Of a stretch of DNA of 23,581 bases, positions 653-3,491 are shown one piece after another. The DNA comes from Lobulomyces angularis (Eukaryota; Chytridiomycota; Chytridiomycetes; Lobulomycetales; Lobulomycetaceae), in the NCBI GenBank assembly GCA_027604685.1, contig JADHYX010000349.1:1-23581 (forward strand). Direction: 5' to 3'. The translations under genes were made by a program, and so were the position numbers. Within the stretch, counting starts at the first letter, position 1, and each line of letters opens with the position of its first letter. A model generated the notes under the pieces. The model had not been told where the DNA came from and made no database searches. It saw nothing but the letters and a program-made list of their open reading frames with translations.

Positions 653-3491
653 TTATTGCTGGTTATTGTAGTATTGATTATATCCACCATTAAAATCCCC
701 TGAGATTGATGGGCCAGTAATTGGGGAAACTGAAGAATTTACTGATGCTATGTTTCAAAAATAAGGATATTAAATTTACTTATTGTTTTCTTTTTTTACC
801 ACCATTTGATGGTTGATTTTGCTCAGTCCCCATTCGTCGTGGAAATCCAGATGGCCCTAAACATTCAATTTATTTTAGTTAAATTTTCAAAAGCATGGAA
901 TATTACCATTCATTTGAGGGGCACCAATCTGATGTTGCATGTGCTGCATTTGTTGAGGATACCTAAAAAAAAATATTTCAGAATGATAAATTACAACTTT
1001 TATACATTGGTGGTCGATTCATTGGATTTGGATTAAAATTTCCCATGAATTGATGCTGTGGTGCAATTTGATGCATATACTGGTTATGATGACCAAATTG
1101 AGGTGGGTAACTTTTTTAAAAAATTTTAGAATATTTTCAAAATGCTTGAAATTACCCTCCTCTATTCATAATCATTCCTCCTCTATTTCCCATGTTCATA
1201 CCTCCAGTTGAGTTATTCATATAATTGTTATTCATATTTTCTAAACCTCTACTTATCTGTTGATTTGGATTTTGGTTTCCTGCAAGTTTGCCTTGTTTCT
1301 TTAAGAGTACCTTTTGCTTTTGTTCAAAGTCAAATTCCATCGTCTTTTCGTGAATCCAAGGAGGTAATTCTTGTTTAGCTTCCTTTAACAGTTCTGTTAA
1401 ATCTTTTAACAAAAACTTATCTCTTGATAAATTAAAAAATGCTGTAGCTTTCCCGTTGTTTCCAGCACGTCCTAAAAACTCACAATCCACATTAGCTACA
1501 CAAAAAAGTAAGCAGTAATACCTGTTCTTCCAATTCTATGTACATACTCGTCAATGTCAGAAGGAAGGTCAAAATTTATGACATGATTTACATAGGGAAT
1601 ATCTAAACCTCTAGCAGCAACTGAAGTAGCAACTAATATTGGAATTCTACCCAATCTGAACATTGATAAAGCATCCTCCCTATCTTGTTGAGATCTATTA
1701 CCATGAATAGATGTAGCTGGAAATCTGTTTTTAAGGAGAAAATCACATACTATATCACAATTTTTTCTTTTTTCAACAAAAACTAAAGTTAAATTTGGAC
1801 CATTCTGATCTTGCATGTTTAGCATTTGATCTTTTTGAAGTAAATCTAAAAGTGCACCCCTTTTTTCCATTTCCTCCACATATTCAATTTTTTGAACAAT
1901 GGTATCGGAAGTTGAACCGACCCTTCCAACTGTTAAAAACACATACTCTTTAAGGAAGTCTTCAGCTAACAATTTAATGTTTTTTGGAAAAGTAGCTGAA
2001 AACATTAAAGTTTGGCGTTCTTTTGGCATATCTTCCCCTTCAACGATTCGTCGAATTTGTGGTTCGAAACCCATGTTCAACATTCCTAAAAATTTAAAAA
2101 TTAATAAACAATGCAAAGAGCGTAAATAGGATACTATCGGCTTCATCCATAACAAAGTAGCGCACTGATTGTAATGAAACTTTTCTACGATCAATAAGAT
2201 CTATTAGTCTACCAGGAGTTGCTACTAAAAGGTTACAACCTTGTTCTAAATCTCTTATTTGATCAAAAATTGGTTGACCGCCATAGCAAACACAAGGTCT
2301 TACCCAGGATCGATACGAAAACTTACAAGCTTCATCAAATATTTGAATTGCCAATTCTCTTGTAGGTGTCAAAATTAATGTGAGTGGAACTTGAGGTTTT
2401 TTTTCATCTCCATATCCGATGGAAGCAGTTTCCGTGGGCTGGCCATCTTTAAAATTTTGGCTTAGTATTGGTAAAAGAAAAGCGGCAGTTTTCCCTGAAC
2501 CTGTTTGAGCTAAATTAAAAATAATATTATAAAATTTTCTAATTAAAAAAGGTACCACAAGCCATTAAATCTCTTCCAGATGTCACGATAGGGATAGCAC
2601 GTTTTTGAACAGGTGTTGGGTGAGAATATCCACTAAGTTTTATTGTTTCCTTTAATAAATCATCCAAGGCGCTGTCAATAAAATTATCAATTTCGGCTGG
2701 TATATTTGACCCAGTAACTACAACTGGAATATTATCATAGTTTTGAAAGTTAATGGCTGAAGAAACTTGTTTATTTCCAAAAAGTTTTTGCTCCAACTGC
2801 GAATTTTTCGGTTGAACATCTTCTCTGCTAAAAAAAGTATCATTAGGGTCTTTTTCTGTAACAACATTTCTCTGCCCCGAAGAATGCACAGTGGAATTTC
2901 CTTGCCTTAAACTGATCAAAGTATACAACTGTTTAAAAAATCATCAAAAAATTTATTGTACCCTTGGCTTTCCTGAAACGATTGCTGAGAAGAGTTATTC
3001 ATCATGTAATATTGATTATTATTCATAAACAAATTTGAAGCTTGATTGAAGTTGCTTGCTAGAAAAGCAAAGAAAGTTGACACTTTGCTGTTATAATTAC
3101 TTACGTTGATGGTAGAATCGACAAGAATCTTTAAATCTACAAGCTTCTCCGAACTTACATACTTGAGAGCTATTTTGGGGAGAAAAATCGCCATTTTTAA
3201 AATCATCTTTTAAAAAACAAATTAAAAAATTCTTATTACAAAAAATATACTATTGGAGTGGTCAAACCAGCACTTATCCTTAAAAGAGCATGCATCACCG
3301 TACTTGCATAATGGTTTTTGCAAATCTGAGCTACCGTCATTTTCTGTTGAACCGACTAGAAAAAGGTTAAAAAAAAAAGATCATTCATTACGCCTATCAG
3401 GGTGAGAAAACCAACAACTGCTACCATAAGTACATGCATTACCTAATTTGCAAGGAGGTTTTAACAAGTTTTGTTCCATTCCAGATAGCAT
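653..3491 (-). CDS. DED1: DEAD-box RNA helicase, Ded1/DDX3 type, with three N-terminal CCCH zinc fingers
   Basis: ATP-dependent RNA helicase of the Ded1/DDX3 family, which in other eukaryotes remodels mRNPs and drives translation initiation in the cytoplasm. Twelve exons, read on minus: 3392-3491, 3251-3355, 3105-3206, 2962-3058, 2556-2911, 2135-2509, 1522-2085, 1156-1471, 1006-1110, 907-962, 800-856, 653-747. The model gives 775 aa, frame-consistent throughout. Three CCCH fingers of C-x5-C-x5-C-x3-H start at C14, C50 and C85. The core shows a Q motif (HPTPVQ), AQTGSGKT (254-261), [12 protein letters not shown] (375-378) followed by [14 protein letters not shown], and HRIGRTGR (561-568). The tail of roughly 110 residues is rich in Q, N, H, M and G. 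Introns fall at motif I, just after motif II, and inside motif VI. Ded1/DDX3 proteins normally have disordered N-termini without zinc fingers, so the fusion is unusual. The start is the first ATG; only an A/T hairpin tract lies upstream. Confidence 0.9.

Follow-up and report, generated by a model that had tools for sequence, protein, structure and literature searches.

Gene model at the locus

The window, i.e. the whole stretch of DNA that we analysed, is a contig of 23,581 bases from Lobulomyces angularis, a chytrid of the order Lobulomycetales. On its minus strand lies a gene model, hereafter the fusion, whose first three exons encode CCCH zinc fingers and whose later exons encode a helicase of the DDX3/Ded1 type (Table 1). 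Its start codon is the ATG at 3491 and, with the tail of the deposited protein P0001, its stop codon is at 655-653. P0001 is 783 aa long and is identical to the fusion model at the N-terminus and across the join.

The initial annotation had placed four junctions between the finger exons and the helicase and all four are exact to the base: the introns at 3391-3356, 3250-3207, 3104-3059 and 2961-2912 are GT...AG and hold the frame into the helicase. The in-frame passage through canonical introns that it described was therefore recovered, with an open frame and in the same form in P0001. The ten modelled introns upstream of the last one are 36-50 nt long, every one of the form GTA...AG. The last intron (799-748) is dispensable for an open frame, and the unspliced protein ends in KKRKQ. 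The sequence of P0001 points to the use of an early acceptor in intron 7 (1521-1472), which introduces eight extra residues inside motif VI; the next acceptor of this intron gives back HRIGRTGRAG in the motif.

Several other features lie in the window. Adjoining the fusion, pieces of a superfamily 1 helicase (about 5500-8290, plus strand) scored over the Pfam cut-off for AAA_11 and just under it for AAA_12, and we assume that this gene is possibly MOV10/SDE3-like. The upstream neighbour of the fusion on the same strand (3864-4853, minus strand), whose exons are fused to the helicase in P0002, a deposited Clydaea vesicula model, includes a piece (4497-4853) without Pfam match. Farther away, two divergent metacaspase-like genes form an inverted pair, at about 9457-12224 on the plus strand and 18668-21052 on the minus strand, and are mutually related in several exon pieces (six match rows), the region before the caspase domain included; the caspase domain itself was found in one piece of each. 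The minus strand also carries a GATA-type zinc finger piece below the Pfam cut-off (12616-12891) and a BTB domain (13868-14329).

Table 1. Exons of the fusion model and the intron at its join, in window coordinates
Feature	Positions	Strand	Remarks
Exon 1	3392..3491	-	start codon at 3491; finger 1 at 3402-3452
Exon 2	3251..3355	-	105 nt, flanked by phase-1 introns; finger 2 at 3258-3308
Exon 3	3105..3206	-	102 nt, flanked by phase-1 introns; finger 3 at 3109-3159, where the genome also gives a zf-CCCH_2 match
Exon 4	2962..3058	-	linker rich in N, Q and S; starts in phase 1, ends in phase 2
Intron 4 of the fused model	2912..2961	-	inner alternative acceptor at 2929 breaks the frame
Exon 5	2556..2911	-	end of the N-terminal extension, EKDPND region, Q motif
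Exon 6	2135..2509	-	motifs I to DEAD
Exon 7	1522..2085	-	motifs III to V, beginning of VI
Exon 8	1156..1471	-	remainder of motif VI, first part of the C-terminal tail
Exon 9	1006..1110	-	C-terminal tail
Exon 10	907..962	-	C-terminal tail
Exon 11	800..856	-	C-terminal tail; end at 800 when the final intron (799-748) is removed, which P0001 implies
Exon 12	653..747	-	implied by P0001, up to the stop codon

The zinc fingers and their likeness to known families

Three identically spaced CCCH fingers had been reported in the first three exons, and we found them there, starting at residues 14, 50 and 85 (residues 14-30, 50-66 and 85-101). Each follows the pattern C-x5-C-x5-C-x3-H, with ligands at positions 1, 7, 13 and 17, and the linkers between them are 19 and 18 residues long. 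When the N-terminal 135 residues were shuffled, only 9 of 20000 shuffles held even one finger of this pattern. A comparison with Pfam, which the initial annotation had also proposed, matched zf-CCCH_2 on the N-terminal 183 residues (5.3e-9, above the cut-off). This was the best Pfam finger model, with 27.8 bits on the whole protein and 36.7 bits on the N-terminus against a gathering score of 25.8. Position 2 of the fingers is K, K and K, and position 3 is L, Y and F; the aromatic residue two positions after the second ligand (C2+2) is Y, F and F, and the one two positions before the histidine is F in all three. With 12 K+R versus 13 D+E, residues 1-135 have no net basic charge.

Introns 1-3 are all in phase 1 and fall one to three codons past the histidine of each finger. 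The pairwise identity of the fingers is 9, 9 and 11 of 17 positions, and fingers 1 and 2 with their flanks have in common a 40-nt repeat at 70%. Phase-1 exons, likeness of the fingers and the 40-nt repeat are the trace that would be expected from repeated duplication of a phase-1 exon. As possible donors we considered the 21 zf-CCCH_2 matches at E<=1 in the same genome, three of which are the window's own; the loci of 15 of the 21 were taken (two being the window's own) and both strands were read. Within these 15 loci no finger donor was found, the x5-x5-x3 spacing being present only in the window gene. Fingers with x5-x4-x3 spacing occurred once each in loci L022 and L026, and the first loops of the other motifs were of 6 to 9 residues. 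We considered L022 as a Nab2 homolog and dropped it, since it encodes a long protein whose displayed open frame contains a single finger of this kind.

The fingers had been called Nab2/ZC3H14-spaced, a description that holds in part. Precisely, the first loop of five residues and the best match to zf-CCCH_2 agree with it, and the range of x4-6 given there for the second loop admits the x5 found here, whereas yeast Nab2 has x4 and short linkers. According to PMC3384006, the ligands of yeast Nab2 fingers stand at positions 1, 7, 12 and 16 (x5-x4-x3), and fingers 5-7, with linkers of 6 and 5 residues by their residue numbers, are packed as one unit. The residues important for poly(A) binding there are basic at position 2, aromatic at position 3 in fingers 5 and 7, and aromatic at position 14. 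All three window fingers keep the basic position 2 and the aromatic before the histidine, and two of them keep the aromatic position 3. Thus yeast Nab2 is like the window fingers in the zf-CCCH_2 family, the five residues between ligands 1 and 2 and the basic position 2, and unlike them in its second loop of four residues, the short linkers and the single packed unit of three fingers.

When the PDB sequences were searched with fingers 2-3, Nab2 (2lhn) was the last of 11 matches (E 3.4), under TTP-type chains and Regnase-1, and it was absent from two other PDB searches that gave 12 and 10 matches. The chains 9y10, 1m9o (TTP) and 1rgo (butyrate response factor 2, which we take to be TIS11d) align to fingers 2-3 with the 18-residue linker ungapped. 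These alignments are weak (E 5.9e-4, 0.018 and 0.077), as expected for such short domains; they start only close to ligand 2 of finger 2, extend through finger 3 and require a three-residue gap in its first loop. The tandem fingers of TTP/TIS11d have a first loop of x8. Hence tristetraprolin and TIS11d resemble the window fingers in the C-x5-C-x3-H part, the C2+2 and pre-His aromatics and the 18-residue linker, and differ from them in that the window has three fingers and its finger 3 has a first loop shorter by three residues. The finger of Regnase-1 (ZC3H12A) aligned to one of the window fingers and has exactly the spacing C-x5-C-x5-C-x3-H. Unlike in the fusion, according to PMC4772114, it is a single finger behind a PIN nuclease domain and without helicase; it binds RNA with a Kd of about 10 uM.

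The helicase core, its ordinary paralog and other relatives

All 11 DEAD-box motif patterns searched for (Q, I, Ia, GG, Ib, II, III, IV, IVa, V and VI) are present in the model of 750 aa, and Pfam matched DEAD (1.1e-47) and Helicase_C (7.6e-31). The core also carries the EKDPND and INFxNYDxIPV regions. A decaying gene is not favoured, since the searched motif patterns are all there and the frame is open.

Two elements outside the core are missing. By a simple pattern, YVPPH is not in P0001 and is found in 29 of the 41 aligned rows, being also missing in 11 other rows, P0002 included. The C-terminal W is not in the last 14 residues of P0001 and is found in 37 of 41 rows; three other rows lack it, two of which are named partial. 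YVPPH and the C-terminal W are therefore not universal: their loss is not unique to the fusion and does not exclude it from DDX3/Ded1. In yeast Ded1, according to PMC7343385, the N-terminal domain contacts eIF4A and eIF4E, and the C-terminal domain is used for eIF4G.

A search of the same genome returned an ordinary DDX3 gene on another contig (C173), with matches of 59-61% to P0001. As read from its exons (locus L036), this gene has YVPPHAR near its start and a W near its end. Three core introns are common to it and to the fusion, in the same place and phase, one of them at GRT|GRAG. Its N-terminal introns are in phase 1 before VPPHAR and in phase 2 before the EKDPND region, and those of the fusion are in phase 1 before exon 4 and in phase 2 after it, so that exon 4 has the phases of the ordinary exon beginning with VPPHAR. 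The shared core introns and the matching order of N-terminal phases are most simply read as a duplication of DDX3 at the DNA level, after which the first exons would have been replaced by finger exons. Relative to DDX3/Ded1 proteins, the C173 paralog included, the fusion has in common the 11 core motif patterns, EKDPND, INFxNYDxIPV, the three intron sites (with C173) and its place in the tree; it differs in its N-terminus of three CCCH fingers, in lacking YVPPH and the C-terminal W and in its longer branch.

The tree has 43 rows and consists of DDX3/Ded1 relatives, without other DEAD subfamilies. In it the fusion is the sister of the Clydaea/C173 DDX3, entered as P0006, with support 100/98. 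Its end branch is 2.37 versus 0.55, and both this length and an odd composition were flagged, which makes the exact placing less sure. As judged from these comparisons, the fusion is a fast-evolving DDX3 paralog and not the sole Ded1 of the genome.

Clydaea vesicula records closely match both copies. The C173 protein is identical to P0006 over 652 residues, and P0002 aligned to the product of the window gene over 553 columns, of which 16 have gaps, with one mismatch. We rejected Clydaea vesicula as an independent confirmation for this reason, P0006 being identical and P0002 having a single ungapped difference. The Clydaea vesicula records probably come from the same genome or from a mixed-in one, by way of a mislabelled or mixed assembly.

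The combination of CCCH fingers with a Ded1/DDX3 helicase, which had been described as unusual, is indeed rare in what we searched. Among the best 120 of 7984 scored matches to the full-length protein, a CCCH motif or a Pfam CCCH domain was present in P0001 only, and in a Pfam scan of the 41 aligned relatives a CCCH family was found in one and RanBP2-type fingers in two. With the search scored on residues 1-190, two of 123 candidates reached E<=10, i.e. P0001 and P0002. A search with the fingers only, for separate short finger proteins, gave three candidates, none of them at E<=10. These protein searches need shared 5-residue words, and distant fusions could escape them. No ortholog of the fusion was found among the matches listed outside the two near-identical assemblies, and a literature search over titles and abstract openings of open-licence papers did not find a CCCH-Ded1/DDX3 fusion. 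Vasa/GLH-type proteins are also DEAD-box helicases preceded by small zinc modules that bind RNA, but these modules are CCHC knuckles and the proteins belong to the animal germline. Each module of the fusion is known, and the gene looks like a lineage-specific variation of such modules; what appears new is their combination on a DDX3 duplicate beside a kept ordinary copy, which was not in the listed literature or in the relatives seen.

The two relatives with RanBP2-type fingers are P0054 and P0055 of Chytriomyces hyalinus. Like the fusion, they are chytrid DDX3 paralogs with added zinc fingers and with YVPPH absent by pattern; unlike it, their fingers are of the RanBP2 type and are placed C-terminal of the core. 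Both are predicted gene models, 93% identical to each other, with Pfam scores for these fingers of 58.4 bits (P0054) and 27.8 bits (P0055) versus a cut-off of 27. Forcing the fusion and these two proteins into one clade was 30.3 log-likelihood units worse and was rejected at p-AU 0.0194, a value somewhat generous as the clade was chosen after the tree had been seen. Zinc fingers hence seem to have been joined to chytrid DDX3 copies at least twice, if the gene models are right.

Reading of the fusion and its rivals

We consider it very probable, from the exon evidence, that the finger exons and the helicase form one fused gene. The alternative is a prediction artefact, in which the finger exons and the helicase would be separate products, for example by use of the intron 4 acceptor at 2929 or by a helicase start in exon 4. 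In fact the fused frame requires the acceptor at 2912, and use of 2929 destroys it, giving a stop a few residues on and thus a short finger-only protein; exon 4 does contain in-frame ATGs. Doubtful joins also exist among deposited chytrid models: P0018 has MYND and SET before a DDX3 core, and in P0002 the finger exons are skipped and the helicase is joined, by the acceptor 2929 and across a gap of roughly 0.9 kb, to the exons of the upstream neighbour. Against the artefact, the intron ending at 2929 would be of 33 nt, i.e. shorter than the range of the ten modelled introns, and exon 5 has no in-frame ATG ahead of the helicase Q motif, so that the start must sit in exons 1-4. Moreover, the distance from exon 3 to exon 5, exon 4 included, is 193 nt, scant space for a terminator and a promoter. 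The codon usage also favours the model frame: for exons 1-4 it is the best of the six frames, with 0.08-0.17 bits per codon and all other frames negative. The training set was small and consisted of exons 5-8 and the C173 gene, with exons 1-4 left out, and the trained exons 5-8 scored higher (0.36-0.47). Since the intron phases match those of the ordinary DDX3 gene as well, we regard the artefact as improbable.

Starting from the open in-frame join, the intact helicase motifs, the ordinary paralog and the shared core introns, all of which are read directly in the DNA, we propose the following origin and function, to which we give a somewhat better than even chance. A DDX3/Ded1 gene would have been duplicated on the branch leading to Lobulomyces/Clydaea, and in one copy three CCCH-finger exons, themselves tandem duplicates, would have taken the place of the 5′ exons for the usual N-terminus. 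Like separate beads on flexible linkers of 18-19 residues, the fingers would bind short single-stranded RNA segments that are most likely A/U-rich. The cores of DDX3/Ded1 proteins show little sequence preference in unwinding RNA and take their direction from partners, as is generally known and as stated in PMC7343385. The finger array would thus keep a DEAD-box core that is itself non-specific on selected mRNAs, with no need to be recruited by the cap complex. The likeliest job of such a protein would be to remodel or store particular A/U-rich mRNAs, with general translation start left to the ordinary DDX3. An RNA tether is suggested because of the K at position 2, the aromatics at C2+2 and before the histidine, the TTP-type linker that aligns without gaps and the spacing equal to that of Regnase-1. 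As the fingers take the place of the N-terminal domain and the C-terminal W is missing, we infer that this copy is guided by its fingers and not by the cap complex.

Two other functions have to be weighed against an A/U-rich tether. The initial annotation had proposed that Nab2/ZC3H14-type fingers tether the helicase to poly(A) and couple recognition of the tail with translation start. The best Pfam finger model, which is the Nab2-type zf-CCCH_2, speaks for this, as do the basic position 2, the aromatic position 3 in two of the three fingers and the aromatic before the histidine, which agree with the poly(A)-binding positions in PMC3384006. The geometry speaks against it, with x5-x5-x3 and long linkers here versus the x5-x4-x3 and short linkers of the packed yeast unit described there, and so does the low rank of Nab2 in one PDB search and its absence from the other two. 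The coupling to translation start is further weakened, since this copy lacks YVPPH and the C-terminal W, both of which the ordinary paralog keeps. Taken together, we judge the poly(A) reading unlikely, and a single-stranded RNA tether, probably A/U-rich, is the better guess on the finger comparisons. It is also rather unlikely, in our estimate, that the fingers are protein-protein or structural modules which, for example, recruit decay or export factors; the balance of 12 K+R against 13 D+E in residues 1-135 would suit this, whereas the K at position 2 and the aromatics are kept at the places where Nab2 contacts RNA.

Beyond this locus, we advance a broader idea only tentatively. Chytrids may more than once have made a spare DDX3/Ded1 into a sequence-directed helicase by means of fingers that bind single-stranded RNA, with CCCH fingers in front in Lobulomyces and RanBP2-type fingers behind in C. 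hyalinus, while shedding contacts with the cap complex. If this were true, such copies would be natural targeted DEAD-box helicases. The reach of the finding beyond chytrid biology is modest, both halves being known folds and the join having been seen so far in one genome. A finger-bearing duplicate beside an ordinary copy would nevertheless allow one to ask directly what N-terminal recruitment does in this family, and whether RNA sequence can steer a DEAD-box core.
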